DNA of 64,000 nt. It comes from Eubacteriales bacterium. Its GTDB lineage: Bacteria; Bacillota; Clostridia; Lachnospirales; Lachnospiraceae. A program made the position numbers and the translations under genes. Of the stretch, positions 47,037-51,835 are shown one piece after another; positions within the stretch are counted from its first letter, which is position 1; the number at the start of each line of letters is the position of its first letter. The notes beneath the pieces are model-generated. The model was given only the letters and a program-made list of their open reading frames with translations, was not told the DNA's origin and searched no databases. The stretch is taken from the NCBI GenBank assembly GCA_030524545.1, contig JAUNGM010000013.1, positions 1 to 64,000 on the forward strand. Reading direction: 5' to 3'.

Positions 47037-47097
47037 AAAAATCCTCTTCCTGAAAAGCAGGCAATTTCTCGTAACCTGCCTCAGGAAAGAGGATTTT
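47037..47097 (-). terminator. Intrinsic terminator of the YccF operon
   Basis: A long stem (AAAATCCTCT paired with AGGATTTT, extended by CCTGA/TCAGG) encloses an inner GCAGG/CCTGC hairpin. TTTTTTCTGTTT follows on the minus strand. Confidence 0.88.
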
Positions 47098-47136: not shown

Positions 47137-47496
47137 TTAATATACTTCTGAACCAAAGGGCATCAGCGCCAGTTTTGCCAGCTTGAACTGCTGCAGGCCA
47201 AAGGGAATTCCGATCACTGTAATACACAGCGCGGCTCCTAAAACCGCATGCTCAATTGCCAGTGGCAGACCGGATACAACCAGCCAGATGATATTCAGAA
47301 GGAGCGAACCTGCCCCTCCGCCGTAACGCACTTCCTTCCCAAACGGAAAGAAGCTGAGAGAGGCAAACTTAAAGCACTGCATCCCCACAGGGATTCCCAC
47401 AACTGTAATGCACCAGAGGCAGCCTGCAAGACACCAGCTCAAACCACTGACTGCACCGCCGAAAATAAACCATAAAAGATTTCCCAAACAACCCAT
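47137..47496 (-). CDS. YccF-domain membrane protein
   Basis: This 119-aa protein consists of two repeated YccF modules: GNLLWFIFGGAVSGLSWCLAG with ITVVGIPVGMQCFK, and LNIIWLVVSGLPLAIEH with ITVIGIPFGLQQFKLAKL. YccF domains form inner-membrane proteins of unknown biochemical role. It is the second gene of a two-gene operon whose leader is a yybP-ykoY Mn2+ riboswitch, which points to a link with manganese, possibly efflux or its control. A strong terminator follows. Confidence 0.9.
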   Translation of the reverse strand: MGCLGNLLWFIFGGAVSGLSWCLAGCLWCITVVGIPVGMQCFKFASLSFFPFGKEVRYGGGAGSLLLNIIWLVVSGLPLAIEHAVLGAALCITVIGIPFGLQQFKLAKLALMPFGSEVY

Positions 47497-47525
47497 GTGC
47501 CAAACCTCCTTAATTAAAGTTAATA

Positions 47526-47951
47526 TTAACCGTTTACCTGTTTCAATTCTTCCAGCAGCCCTTCTACCCGGTAAATTGCATCACTTACCTGCTCCCGGGC
47601 GTCCGCGATCCTGGTCTGTACCAGGTAGTCCGCAACCAGGCCGTCAAAGAAAAAGTCCGCAAATGAAAGGAAGCCGCCGACTTCTATGTTAAGATCTCTG
47701 ATTACCCGGACATCTCTCAATTCCCTCTGGAAAACCAGCAGGTCTCTTTTTGCGCTTTCCACATAGGAAGCTGCATCGTTCATCTTGGAGTGCTTAATCA
47801 TGTCTGTCACAAAGCCGCCTCCAAGCATATCAAAAATTCCCCAGTTTCTGGCGCTGTTCAGCTTCTCCTGTGCTGCCCGAAGGCTTCCGAGAGCCCTTTC
47901 ACCTGCAGTGATCGCTTCCTGAATTTCCATTCTCATCATTTCGTTACTCAT
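47526..47951 (-). CDS. Uncharacterised helical protein co-transcribed with YccF
   Basis: This 141-aa soluble protein was not assigned to a named family. It is almost all helix: an N-terminal helix EIQEAITAGERALGSLRAAQEKL, a glycine-rich GIFDMLGGGFVTDMIKHSKM turn, and two long charged helices (ASYVESAKRDLLVFQRELRDV and TRIADAREQVSDAIYRVEGLLEELK) that could form a coiled coil. GAGAGGAG precedes the ATG. It is the first gene after the Mn2+ riboswitch, 29 bases upstream of the YccF gene, so the pair should share a function. Confidence 0.85.
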   Translation of the reverse strand: MSNEMMRMEIQEAITAGERALGSLRAAQEKLNSARNWGIFDMLGGGFVTDMIKHSKMNDAASYVESAKRDLLVFQRELRDVRVIRDLNIEVGGFLSFADFFFDGLVADYLVQTRIADAREQVSDAIYRVEGLLEELKQVNG

Positions 47952-48003
47952 ACTTTTCTCCTCTCTTATGCAAGCCTATGCAGCAGTCTGCCATATGTTT
48001 AAG

Positions 48004-48050
48004 AAATAAAAAAAGACTCCTATTATGACATCTGCCACAATAAAAGTCTT
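48004..48050 (-). terminator. Terminator overlapping the 3' edge of the Mn2+ riboswitch
   Basis: On the minus strand AAGACT (48045-48050) pairs with AGTCTT (48013-48018), extended by TTATTGTG with CATAATA, and TTTTTTT follows. The 5' arm reuses the conserved GCAAGACTTTT end of the aptamer, so ligand-folded aptamer and terminator are mutually exclusive: Mn2+ should switch the operon on. Confidence 0.8.
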
Positions 48051-48137
48051 GCCATCTCATTTGATACGGATGCCTCTCGGCATCGGGTGACGGTTTCAAA
48101 CCCACTCATTTCTGAGTGTTCAGCTACTCCCCTTCCA
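48041..48137 (-). ncRNA. yybP-ykoY manganese riboswitch
   Basis: The minus strand shows the conserved order GGGGAGTAGC, hairpin CACTCA-GAAA-TGAGTG, the CGTCA loop (ACCGTCACCC), hairpin GATGCC-GAGA-GGCATC, and GGCAAGACTTTT. These are the landmarks of the yybP-ykoY family, which senses Mn2+. The riboswitch precedes the helical protein/YccF operon and has its own promoter. Confidence 0.87.
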
Positions 48138-48149
48138 TTGCTTGTGAAA

Positions 48150-48178
48150 AACATATCACTTTCCTGCATATTTGTCAA
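48150..48178 (-). promoter_or_regulatory. Promoter of the Mn2+ riboswitch operon
   Basis: TTGACA (48173-48178), a 17-bp spacer and TATGTT (48150-48155) lie just upstream of the aptamer on the minus strand. Confidence 0.8.
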
Positions 48179-48330: not shown

Positions 48331-49011
48331 ATGTCACAGAATATTTTAATTGTAGAAGATGACGCCCATATTAACAATCTTCTGAAAGAAGCACTGGAAA
48401 AAGAAAACTTTGTCTGTGAGCAGGCATTTTCCGGTTCGGAAGCAAAGCTGCTGGTTGAGATGAAATCCTATAGCCTTATCCTTCTGGATCTCATGCTTCC
48501 CGGAATCAGCGGCGAAGAGGTATTATCCGTGATCCGCAGCAAAAGCCGTACCCCCGTCATCGTACTTACAGCCAAAGACAGTCTTGACGAAAAGGTGGAT
48601 ATCCTCGTAAACGGCGCTGACGACTACATTACCAAACCGTTTGAAATAAAAGAAGTCCTTGCGCGCATCGGTGTTCAGCTAAGACATTCTGCCTCAGGCC
48701 AGCCGGAAAATAGCAGCGTCATCACCTGCAGCGACCTGATGCTTGACAGGCAGAATTTTACCGTTACTGTAAATAATACTCTGCTGCCCAAAATAACCAG
48801 ACAGGAATTTGCTATTCTGGAACTTCTCGCCAGACACCCCAAACGTGTCTTCAGCAAAGAGGAGATTTTTGAATATGCATGGGATGAGCCTTATATGGGC
48901 GAAACAAAAACTCTCGACGTACATATCAGCAATATCCGTAAAAAAATCAAAAAGGTGACCGACCGGGAATATATCGAAACGGTCTGGGGCATCGGATATA
49001 AACTTTACTAA
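48331..49011 (+). CDS. OmpR-family response regulator of the BcrAB-type module
   Basis: This 226-aa regulator has a receiver domain (phospho-acceptor Asp53 in LILLDLMLPG, DD at 10-11, TAKDS, TKPFE) and an OmpR winged HTH ending ETVWGIGYKLY. AAGGAG precedes the ATG. It heads an operon with an ABC ATPase, an ABC-2 permease and a histidine kinase, the arrangement of lantibiotic or bacitracin resistance loci. It is not closely similar to the regulator at 41311-41973, so the two modules are not recent duplicates. Confidence 0.95.
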   Translation: MSQNILIVEDDAHINNLLKEALEKENFVCEQAFSGSEAKLLVEMKSYSLILLDLMLPGISGEEVLSVIRSKSRTPVIVLTAKDSLDEKVDILVNGADDYITKPFEIKEVLARIGVQLRHSASGQPENSSVITCSDLMLDRQNFTVTVNNTLLPKITRQEFAILELLARHPKRVFSKEEIFEYAWDEPYMGETKTLDVHISNIRKKIKKVTDREYIETVWGIGYKLY

Positions 49012-49101
49012 TTATTTACTTTTGCTTTGCGTTTTTTTAGGTACTGCCCTCTATCATGAAACATGAAGCAACACCAATAAAACGTGAAGGAGCAAGATGA
49101 T

Positions 49102-50019
49102 ATGAGTGAATATCTGCTGAGTACCAACCGGCTTACCAAAGAATTCAAGCATCATAAAGCTGTCAATGAAGTAAACCTGCATATAAAAAAGGGCGCCGTT
49201 TACGGCTTTATCGGGCGCAACGGAGCAGGGAAGACCACCTTTATGAAAATGATCAGCGGCCTGTCCGCACCCACAAGCGGAGATATCTGCTTTTTCGGGT
49301 ACACAGGCACGGATCTGAAAAAAGTCCGCAACCGCATAGGCTGCCTTATCGAGGAACCCGGCCTTTATCCTAACATGAACGCCTACGATAACATCAAATT
49401 AAAATGTCTTGCAAAGGGCTTATACAAAAAGGAATACGTACAGGAACTGCTTGAAACAGCAGGACTTCAGGATACCGGCAATAAAAAAGTCAAAAAATTT
49501 TCCCTTGGCATGAAGCAAAGGCTTGGAATCGCCCTTGCACTTGTAGGCGAACCGGATCTCCTTGTTCTGGACGAACCGATCAACGGCCTTGACCCTCAGG
49601 GCATTGCCGAGGTAAGAGAAACCATCCAAAAACTGAACGCAGAACATCATATGACATTAATCATTTCCAGTCATATCTTAGGTGAGCTTTCCAAACTGGC
49701 TACTGACTACGGCATTATCCATAACGGCGTATTGATTCAGGAGGTCACTGCCGAGGAACTGCGCCAGCAATGCCAGGAACGAATCGAAGTAACTCTAAAA
49801 AACCCCAAAATGGCTCTGCCCGTTCTGGATGAGCTTGGAATCACCAGATACAATGTCGTTGATAAAGAGCATATCCATATTTACGAACATGTCCACGACA
49901 GTGCACATATCAATGCCGCACTGGTAAACGCAGGAAATATAATATCTGAAATACGAATCAGAAACGAGGAACTGGAGAATTACTATTTCGAACTTACGGG
50001 AGGTATAGGAAATGATTAA
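49102..50019 (+). CDS. BcrA/LanF-type ABC transporter ATP-binding protein
   Basis: This 305-aa ATPase has Walker A GRNGAGKTT (about 38-46), the Q-loop region CLIEEPGLYP, the signature FSLGMKQRLGIA, Walker B LLVLDEPINGLDP and H-loop ISSHILGEL. The E-loop-like CLIEEPG (in place of the usual Gln) is a known feature of lantibiotic immunity ATPases (LanF). A C-terminal domain of about 90 residues follows. The ATG at 49102 was chosen with GGAG nine bases upstream. It overlaps the permease gene by 8 bases. Confidence 0.93.
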   Translation: MSEYLLSTNRLTKEFKHHKAVNEVNLHIKKGAVYGFIGRNGAGKTTFMKMISGLSAPTSGDICFFGYTGTDLKKVRNRIGCLIEEPGLYPNMNAYDNIKLKCLAKGLYKKEYVQELLETAGLQDTGNKKVKKFSLGMKQRLGIALALVGEPDLLVLDEPINGLDPQGIAEVRETIQKLNAEHHMTLIISSHILGELSKLATDYGIIHNGVLIQEVTAEELRQQCQERIEVTLKNPKMALPVLDELGITRYNVVDKEHIHIYEHVHDSAHINAALVNAGNIISEIRIRNEELENYYFELTGGIGND

Positions 50020-50938
50020 CATGATCAAGATGGAGATGTTCCGCCTGTTTAAGACAAAAAGCCTGTATGTCATTCTGGCCATCATGGCTGCAATTACTGT
50101 TTTTTTCACCTATATGGTAAAAGATACTCTCAACCAGATGAATGAGGCGGAAACCACACAGGCTGAGCATAATTCGGGGGCCGGCTACAGTGAGTTTGCC
50201 GACGGATTTGAAGCTGGCGTTCAAGAAAACGGAGAAACGGACTCCCGGGAAGCTGATGCGAGATCCTCCGCCCTGGTCACTGTCGAGTCGTCAACCATAG
50301 AGGATACTTCTATCGATGATGTAACGCTTTTGACAATGCTGTACGATTCTGCAAGCGGAATGATGCTTGGATTATTCCTCGTCATTTTCGCCGTACTATT
50401 TGCAACCGCAGATACAACCTGTGGATTTATCAAGAACATCGGAGGCCAGGTTTCCTCCCGCAATATCCTCATTCTGTCAAAAGCCTTTGGTCTATTGGTT
50501 TATACAGTCGTACTCTTTGCTTCATATATCGTGGTTCAGGGGATTTCCACACAGATTTTCTTTGGATATATCAAACCCGGTGATGCAGGCGAGCTGGCAT
50601 CCTATCTGGCTCTTCAGATTTTACTGCACTTTGCGCTTGCCCTCTTCTGTATGATGCTTGCTCTCCTGATCAAAAACAATGTGGTTACTATCATCATCGT
50701 TGTTTTACTGTGTGCTGACATTCCCGCACTCCTGTTTCGTATCATCAACCAGTTGATCGGAAAACTGGGAATCGAGAATTTTGATATTTCCAAATATTCT
50801 CTTACAAACACCATTTCCGTCCTGGAAACATCCGCAGCCAAATCAGAGGTGGTGAGCGCCGTCTGCATCGGAATCTGTTTCGCTGCTTTTGCCGTATTAT
50901 TAAGCTGTTTTATTTTTAAGAAAAGGGATATCGCATAA
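50012..50938 (+). CDS. ABC-2 type permease of the BcrAB/LanFEG-type module
   Basis: This 308-aa membrane protein has one N-terminal membrane segment (about 18-36), an extracellular loop of some 70 residues rich in Glu and Ser, then five further membrane segments. This layout is usual for BcrB/LanE-type permeases, though the first loop is long. GGGAGG precedes the ATG. With the ATPase it probably expels or removes a peptide antibiotic from the membrane. The stop TAA abuts the ATG of the kinase. Confidence 0.88.
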   Translation: MINMIKMEMFRLFKTKSLYVILAIMAAITVFFTYMVKDTLNQMNEAETTQAEHNSGAGYSEFADGFEAGVQENGETDSREADARSSALVTVESSTIEDTSIDDVTLLTMLYDSASGMMLGLFLVIFAVLFATADTTCGFIKNIGGQVSSRNILILSKAFGLLVYTVVLFASYIVVQGISTQIFFGYIKPGDAGELASYLALQILLHFALALFCMMLALLIKNNVVTIIIVVLLCADIPALLFRIINQLIGKLGIENFDISKYSLTNTISVLETSAAKSEVVSAVCIGICFAAFAVLLSCFIFKKRDIA

Positions 50939-51835
50939 ATGCTGATTTTTGTCATTCTTCTTTTGATCATTATTTTCATACTTATCTTTCTTCTGCTGCA
51001 TTTTCAGAAGCAGATTAAAAGTATCAGCACCCAGTTGATGTTTCTCCGTGAGCACGACAGCAATATGCTCATTTCAAGCGAAACAGAACTGGGCTGTATC
51101 GGCCTGCTGAAGGACAACATCAATGAGCTTCTGAAACAGAACCGGCAGCAGAATAAACAGTATATGGAAAAAGAAAGACATATTGCTCAAACATATACCA
51201 ATCTTTCTCATGATATCCGCACACCTCTCACATCATTGGATGGTTATTTTCAACTGCTTCAGGACAGTAAAAATGAGGACGACAAACAGCGGTATATCGG
51301 GATTATCAAAGAAAGAATCGACAGTCTGAACGATATGCTGGAAGAACTTTTTACATTTACAAAACTGAAGAATGATTCCTATAAAATTGAATTATCACAA
51401 TGTAATATCAACAGCATCCTGGTACAAACCGTCCTGTCCTATTACCAGGACTGGACGTCCAGGGGCATCTCCCCCTCCCTGGATATCATGGACAAACCTC
51501 TGTATATCGAAGGCAATCCCCAGGCCCTCCGCAGAGTCATCCAGAATATCCTGAAAAACGTCCTGGAACACGGACATGAAGAGATTAAAATAAAGCTTAA
51601 AGACATTGACGGAAAGGTCATCTTAAAAGTCAGCAATAAAGTCCGAAACCCGGACGAGATTGATGCAGACCGGGTATTTGAACGGTTCTATAAAGCCGAC
51701 GAAGCGAGAGGAAAAACATCCACGGGGCTTGGCCTCTCCATTGCTTATGAGCTTGTAAAAAGGATGAATGGGGATATACGGGCAGAGTTGGAGGAAAATA
51801 TGTTTTCTGTCATTGTAACTTTTCGTACGCTCTAG
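50939..51835 (+). CDS. Sensor histidine kinase with a single membrane segment
   Basis: This 298-aa kinase begins with one membrane helix (about 2-22, LIFVILLLIIIFILIFLLL) and no extracellular domain. The H-box is NLSHDIRTPLTSL (His ~90), the N-box ILKNVLEHG and the G-box TSTGLGLSIAYEL. Lacking a sensor, it probably detects the peptide through the ABC transporter, as known for BceS and LanK-like kinases. It is translationally adjacent to the permease. It faces the MATE gene tail to tail. Confidence 0.94.
   Translation: MLIFVILLLIIIFILIFLLLHFQKQIKSISTQLMFLREHDSNMLISSETELGCIGLLKDNINELLKQNRQQNKQYMEKERHIAQTYTNLSHDIRTPLTSLDGYFQLLQDSKNEDDKQRYIGIIKERIDSLNDMLEELFTFTKLKNDSYKIELSQCNINSILVQTVLSYYQDWTSRGISPSLDIMDKPLYIEGNPQALRRVIQNILKNVLEHGHEEIKIKLKDIDGKVILKVSNKVRNPDEIDADRVFERFYKADEARGKTSTGLGLSIAYELVKRMNGDIRAELEENMFSVIVTFRTL

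Follow-up and report, generated by a model that had tools for sequence, protein, structure and literature searches.

A divergent yybP-ykoY-type leader RNA without P4, probably a metal-sensing ON switch, precedes genes for an unnamed 141-aa protein and a YccF protein in Lachnospiraceae

The window, by which we mean the whole 64-kb stretch of DNA that was analyzed, carries on its minus strand a structured leader RNA followed by two genes. A promoter scan found the sigma-70-type promoter-like sequence TTGACA-17 nt-TATGTT at 48178-48150 (minus strand), where the preliminary description had claimed a promoter, and TTGACA with an AT-rich, −10-like box 17 nt on was seen by eye in loci L002 and L004-L007. 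The first gene (47951-47526, minus strand) is an ORF for a 141-aa protein, helical as read from its sequence. In line with the earlier statement that it belongs to no recognized family, it gave no significant match in Pfam, NCBIfam or PHROGs; across 55 members of its unnamed family, Pfam and NCBIfam matched nothing consistently, a PDB sequence search gave no relative below E 0.4, and a PADLOC search returned nothing informative. Kinship with PspA/ESCRT-III was considered and dropped for want of profile support, and the listed families, 25 of 55 and 25 of 27, include no PspA or SPFH model. Five matches to the 141-aa family in other families of the order lie inside open frames of 315-320 aa. Relatives occur in two plasmid records and three phage records; the contigs MT836322.1, MT836271.1 and MT839844.1, labeled bacteriophage, encode such relatives. 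The second gene (47496-47137, minus strand) encodes a 119-aa membrane protein with two YccF stretches (PF03733 and NF008740), and the match to PF03733 (E 7.8e-39, 132.5 bits against a gathering threshold of 27) bears out the YccF assignment made earlier. It resembles the family in matching above the cut-off with two such stretches and differs in lying in a riboswitch-type operon. We know of no established function for the YccF family, and no title on a riboswitch was among the YccF titles that we found.

A probable operon-end terminator, AAATCCTCTTTCCTGA...TCAGGAAGAGGATTTT (47041..47096, minus strand), was read from the sequence; it is missing from our simple scan, whose loop limit is 8 nt. 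Behind it lies a probable biotin cluster (46848-43321, minus strand) with BioY, radical SAM/BATS and AAA_26 proteins, of which the minus-strand neighbor is BioY by Pfam, and with an aminotransferase-like ORF recognized by eye. Divergent from the RNA operon, a plus-strand set at 48331-51835 comprises a response regulator (ORF 48331-49011), an ABC ATPase, a permease-like ORF without a Pfam match and a histidine kinase. Rfam also places a TPP riboswitch (30285-30178, minus strand) and a T-box leader (55510-55263, minus strand) in the window, both above gathering.

The structured leader extends over 48143-48038 (minus strand) by the limits of our covariance models R1 and R2 and by covariation, and we describe it as a divergent yybP-ykoY-type aptamer. 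In the covariation alignment, the P1 switch helix (48042..48135) pairs 48135-48131 with 48046-48042. The L1 loop, GGAGUAGC, occupies 48123..48130, and GGGAGUAR is present in 101/101 distinct leaders, a motif that the retrieving model itself contains. The P2 hairpin (48103..48118) shows changes on both sides in 4/5 pairs. P3a (48059..48101; 48101-48096 with 48064-48059) has both-side changes in 4/6 pairs and encloses L3 and the P3b hairpin (48069..48084), where 5/6 pairs are changed on both sides. The UCA of L3 (48088..48090) was fitted by eye to the Mn2+ site of L. lactis; we take it to be U39-C40-A41, a register derived from the L. lactis sequence and from the CGUCA of the RF00080 consensus. 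All of these elements are on the minus strand. In the fold of the window leader the P4 hairpin is absent, and a 12-nt linker joins P3a to P1.

The covariation was assessed on 37 distinct homologous leaders, which are those of the 141-aa class out of the 101 distinct leaders, one of them, L030, being known from a contig end alone. Across them 93.2% of the cells paired, and changes on both sides were found in 13/25 pairs (86 cells, against a shuffled mean of 24.4). This score was equaled by 0/500 shuffles, and slid-structure controls paired at 35-50%. An earlier alignment of six leaders from the window's genus had given seven pairs with changes on both sides. P2, P3a and P3b bear the covariation; in P1, 87.5% of cells pair in the 37 leaders with no pair changed on both sides, and the helix is weak outside its inner five pairs, the pairs of columns 7 and 8 being broken in 16/37 leaders each. 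The leader is a real, covarying RNA with a yybP-ykoY core, namely a GGGAGUAGC loop, a CGUCA loop, a GCAAGAC strand and a terminator that shares a P1 strand. Compared with the RF00080 consensus, the core of L1 GGGAGUAG and L3 CGUCA is present, the placement of the metal site being by eye. The order GGGAGUAGC, CGUCA is that of RF00080, and the GCAAGAC that follows can be compared with GCgaGaC of SSRC10 (RF02617), whose consensus has GGGAG, CGUC, CCG and GCgaGaC in the same order as the leader. The preliminary description had spoken of a full yybP-ykoY aptamer. A covarying leader of this type is what we found; the word "full" was wrong, since there is no fourth helix and RF00080 is blind to the leader at thresholds up to E 10.

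An RF00080 scan had been set beforehand as a refuting test for the preliminary claim and, taken literally, the claim fails: the model matches nowhere in the 64-kb window at gathering (45 bits), a search of the surrounding 401 bases at E ≤ 10 was likewise empty, and so was one of the window's whole genome at E ≤ 0.001. The same whole-genome search matched 5/14 control genomes, including E. coli and B. subtilis. We attribute the lack of a match to the reach of the Rfam model and not to the absence of the RNA, and we rule out the equation of no RF00080 match with no riboswitch, on the grounds of the covariation, the matches of R2 and the gene contexts. R1 was built from six sequences and R2 from 80 R1 matches, both sets including the window site, so that the scores of this site (114.5 bits with R1, 90.2 bits with R2) are not independent. 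The independent evidence for the RNA is the covariation together with the cross-detections by R2. R2 matched 3/3 leaders of mntP (MntP, PF02659) at 29.5-39.9 bits, none of them in its training set; RF00080 gives these leaders 21-28 bits, below gathering, and R1 matched 0/3. R2 also matched 10/10 retrieved RF02617 loci, seven of which lie outside its training set (28.2-53.3 bits); the other three, L299, L301 and L306, coincide with L060, L076 and L080 respectively, already in that set. Conversely, the streptococcal RF02617 model independently picks four R1-found places, two in L299 and one each in L301 and L306, which is itself a link between the RNAs. From these cross-detections, the leader branch, the mntP leaders and the SSRC10 relatives look like one superfamily. 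As controls, R2 had a single match at E ≤ 10 in the 64-kb window, which is this site; 31 loci with 141-aa or YccF genes that had been chosen as RNA-less yielded one match, of 13.7 bits (E 0.44), and the 32nd source (L154) was already known to carry the RNA.

R1 and R2 cover the RF00080 branch poorly, as the three mntP leaders missed by R1 illustrate. RF02617 matches nothing in the window's genome. When two sets of loci with the RNA (20 and 15) were scanned with Rfam, RF00080 matched a single one, weakly (L054, 24.1 bits), and SSRC10 matched two below cut-off (L076 and L080). At E ≤ 0.001, R2 matched 128/250 Lachnospiraceae genomes, taken one per genus; in 150 genomes of the family RF00080 matched three, none above cut-off, and R2 matched 81 of the same 150. 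This indicates that most of a riboswitch branch that is abundant in a major gut family escapes the standard Rfam model.

Downstream of the aptamer, scanning and folding identified an intrinsic terminator of 17 bp followed by a T tract (48050-48013, minus strand). The terminator-bearing 48-nt stretch folds at −19.9 kcal/mol (z −7.7) and the terminator contains the whole 5-nt P1 3′ strand of the drawn fold, so the overlap claimed in the preliminary description holds. At −38.4 kcal/mol, the terminator form greatly exceeds the drawn aptamer (−19.0 kcal/mol) in stability, which implies that the default should be OFF and that a ligand must act during transcription. For the same transcript the free optimum is −29.9 kcal/mol, again versus −19.0 kcal/mol, so the energy model favors another fold, and the leader without the terminator barely beats its shuffles (z −0.95, with 33/200 shuffles as good). 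That free-energy folding does not choose the aptamer counts against the drawn fold; metal-dependent docking lies outside the energy model. According to the accessible text of two papers, the Mn2+ riboswitch follows an ON logic of P1.1 against terminator (PMC9190785, PMC6754395); one review, in its available part, instead names Mn2+ riboswitches OFF switches (PMC11477304). With RF00080 representatives such as L. lactis yoaB, as far as the available sources describe them, the leader shares GGGGAGUAGC and GCGUCA as in the consensus, the P1-terminator overlap and the ON logic, whereas it has no P4, no RF00080 score and a different L3 strand and precedes the 141-aa/YccF pair. We infer the switching from this arrangement, and the leader is probably an ON-type, metal-sensing riboswitch-type RNA. 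Without ligand, the strong terminator would take the P1 3′ strand and transcription would end; on a rise in Mn2+, or possibly Ca2+, L1 and L3 would dock around the metal and hold P1, the terminator would be blocked, and the 141-aa protein and YccF would be produced. To this extent, the preliminary picture of a yybP-ykoY-type leader with predicted ON logic before a pair without defined function is retained.

To place the pair in a wider context, we surveyed the best 80 named loci of at least 556 confirmed 141-aa loci, from Blautia, Schaedlerella, Anaerostipes, Lactonifactor and others. Of these 80 loci, 33 carry the RNA, namely 27/29 with YccF downstream and 6/51 without it, figures that do not amount to a probability since the loci are related. 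One of the six RNA-bearing loci without YccF is cut 190 nt past the gene, and two loci with both genes (L144 and L165) have no RNA. The association of RNA and pair is no accident of one genome; L125 of Blautia schinkii DSM 10518, for example, has the operon. The idea that the RNA regulates YccF as such was rejected, since most of the examined YccF loci of the genus lack it: among 13 loci examined of 35 matches, nine have neither 141-aa gene nor RNA, one is split by an insertion and three have both.

The window's genome contains four copies of the RNA (R2, E 1.7e-5 or better). Besides the pair, they precede a P-type ATPase (contig C45), a Na+/Ca2+ exchanger (C60) and an HflK-like Band 7 protein, behind which lies another of HflC-like type (C56). 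Across 92 R2 loci, made up of the top-scoring matches in the family plus the three further copies of this genome and including the nearly identical L222-L224, a recognized gene lies within 1.7 kb in 85 and seven are unclassified. Cation-transport-type genes account for 53: 36 P-type ATPases, nine Na+/Ca2+ exchangers and eight OAD-beta genes, two of the latter about 1.4 kb from the RNA. A further 31 loci have the 141-aa family (20), SPFH proteins (10) or YccF alone (1), and one has CitMHS; the 141-aa class is favored in this sample because it was favored in the seed. OAD-beta sodium-pump subunits stand directly under the RNA at L063, L066, L072, L076, L077, L080 and others (L063 called by Pfam, the rest by similarity or eye), and are an unexpected target for a manganese switch. 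Single cases have the RNA before a phosphofructokinase (L036) and before a penicillin-binding-like protein (L207), an AI-2E-like transporter (L277) and a Na/Pi-like transporter (L261), the last three assigned by eye. The failure of RF00080, the missing P4 and the shortened L3 would fit an RNA that does not sense metal at all, some other cis-regulatory structure having converged on the same loop sequences. We hold this to be very improbable, since R2 cross-detects the mntP leaders and SSRC10 relatives and more than half of the sampled loci precede cation-transport-type genes.

The gene company also bears on the proposal, made in the preliminary description, that the pair is a manganese efflux or manganese stress system. 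An RNA common to the pair and to probable exporters, and the membrane nature of YccF, would suit a pair that itself exports manganese. Against this, two apparent exporters already stand under the same RNA in this genome, and the P-type ATPase and Na+/Ca2+ exchanger are suggested to be more plausible exporters than the pair; YccF occurs apart from both RNA and 141-aa gene at most of the examined loci of the genus, the 141-aa gene stands under the RNA without YccF at six loci, and the partners found elsewhere are SPFH, EcsC and PspC proteins. We therefore no longer regard the efflux proposal as probable, and consider export by the pair unlikely.

These partners recur in several arrangements. At L126 the operon reads RNA, flotillin-like gene, 141-aa gene, YccF, the RNA lying 2.2 kb ahead of the 141-aa gene; L201 has RNA, 141-aa gene and PspC (PF04024), L195 and L221 have RNA, 141-aa gene and a small membrane protein, and EcsC (PF12787) is the third gene at several loci. 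At L161 (3200-4000) about 800 nt of extra sequence, inverted-repeat-like by eye, separates RNA and 141-aa gene. The company of flotillin/Band 7, EcsC, PspC and small membrane proteins suggests a role of the pair in membrane stress. The pspA-ydjGHI operon of B. subtilis would work alike, as a stress operon that combines an SPFH protein with small partners, the SPFH protein linking PspA to the membrane according to the available text (PMC8581546); it differs in being under sigma-W and not a riboswitch, and PspA and the 141-aa protein have no demonstrated homology. Accordingly, the reading that we favor, with some confidence, is of a P4-less, three-way-junction branch of the yybP-ykoY RNAs that acts as an ON switch for Mn2+ (possibly Ca2+) and induces a membrane-stress module and not an efflux pump. 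The pair, the P-type ATPase, the Na+/Ca2+ exchanger and the Band 7/HflK-like protein would answer metal overload as one RNA regulon, in which the pumps would clear the ion and the 141-aa/YccF pair would work at the membrane to limit damage, as would the partners found elsewhere (flotillin, EcsC and PspC).

The ligand is likely to be Mn2+. The Mn2+ site of L. lactis is made up of G9, U39, C40, A41, U44 and C45 in the accessible portion of PMC9190785. UCA occupies the L3 site in 89/98 parsable leaders (of 101 distinct), although the search pattern itself demands CA. Ca2+ is a live alternative because, in the available part of a review, the pneumococcal three-way-junction relative, the mgtA Mn2+/Ca2+ riboswitch, binds both ions (PMC9495176). 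This RNA has a three-way junction like that of the leader. The SSRC10 transcript of S. pyogenes precedes a putative calcium transporter in the excerpt available (PMC3675131), and SSRC10 would be the S. pyogenes counterpart of the mgtA switch; both precede a cation transporter, and the genes downstream of the window leader differ. A branch that senses another ion, most likely Ca2+, with the regulon as a calcium or general divalent response, therefore deserves weight, although we judge it rather unlikely. In its favor, the downstream genes include P2A ATPases with the Ca2+ type TIGR01522 as best model (below cut-off), Na+/Ca2+ exchangers (PF01699) lie downstream, the mgtA aptamer is described as binding Ca2+ more tightly than Mn2+ (PMC9495176, available part), and its switch is termed Mn/Ca2+-sensing in the accessible text of PMC11434433; Sherlock and Breaker likewise state, in the portion available, that some yybP variants probably changed ligand (PMC7266159). 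The same review nevertheless reports stronger mgtA transcription activation with Mn2+ (PMC9495176), a switch-controlled P-type ATPase guards L. lactis against Mn2+ in the accessible part of PMC11477304, and the prevalence of UCA at L3 speaks for the manganese site. Our literature searches brought up no experimental work on either protein or on whether this branch binds metal, and no paper joining the riboswitch with OAD, flotillin, Lachnospiraceae or calcium.

The L3 loop varies in a manner that may be relevant to the ligand. Compared with the flotillin and Band 7 groups and with most of the others, the window's L3 strand is short by 1 nt, so that the metal site may differ in this leader. Using gene classes assigned by hand (L054, L055, L058 and L061 by eye from the DNA, and L045, L048 and L050 counted with the P-type ATPases despite broken or displaced ORFs), we found 2 nt between the L3 adenosine and the next CG in 27/28 distinct leaders of the 141-aa+YccF class; the remaining one, L154, is unparsable, with UC lost. 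The gap is 3 nt in the leaders of the L126 operon, flotillin and Band 7 and 3-5 nt in P-type ATPase leaders, and 2 nt again in one phosphofructokinase leader, two OAD-beta leaders and four of the seven leaders that precede the 141-aa gene alone. Within the window's genome the gap is unequal among the four copies (2, 4, 3 and 3 nt). As a speculation, the L3 gap could tune affinity or specificity, and such natural variants, four of them in one genome, bear on the published idea of changed ion specificity among yybP RNAs. More tentatively than for the locus itself, and at somewhat less than even chances, we propose that in about half of the Lachnospiraceae genera sampled an excess of divalent ions (Mn2+ or Ca2+) is sensed by a P4-less branch that is invisible to Rfam at cut-off and has a retuned L3, driving a regulon of pumps and membrane protection (141-aa protein, YccF, EcsC, PspC, flotillin and HflK/HflC) in which L3 length varies by gene class within one genome. 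The 141-aa family, YccF and EcsC would thereby gain a shared and testable cue, metal excess.

The plus-strand neighbors of the window operon were compared across loci as well. The response regulator, ABC, permease and kinase set also lies beside the RNA operon in L122 and L298; L127 has ABC, permease and kinase with its start cut, and L298, probably the same contig given its equal length of 48191, has all four. As a constant partner of the RNA, the response regulator-ABC-kinase set was rejected: regulator and ABC are both present in 2/33 RNA loci and 0/47 others, one of the two, L194, at 36% identity.

In four genomes, from the window's own genus and three other genera, L295-L298 (L298 being G210:C105:20000-39500) share stretches of 11.4-19.4 kb at 99.4-99.9% identity. 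These stretches hold RNA, 141-aa gene, YccF and EcsC beside the response regulator-ABC-kinase set, and L298 also encodes an SSB protein and a TraG-type ATPase; by its content and identity, the stretch is probably a recently transferred conjugative element. Genome G029 has transposase-like ORFs between the 141-aa gene and YccF (L003 and L119), and another of its contig ends, L030, carries an RNA of the same class known from that contig end alone. At L134 (Roseburia faecis) EcsC follows the 141-aa gene at once, with YccF missing and no RNA; pieces of this locus are 96-98% identical to the mobile copy, and a transposase-like ORF was seen upstream by eye.
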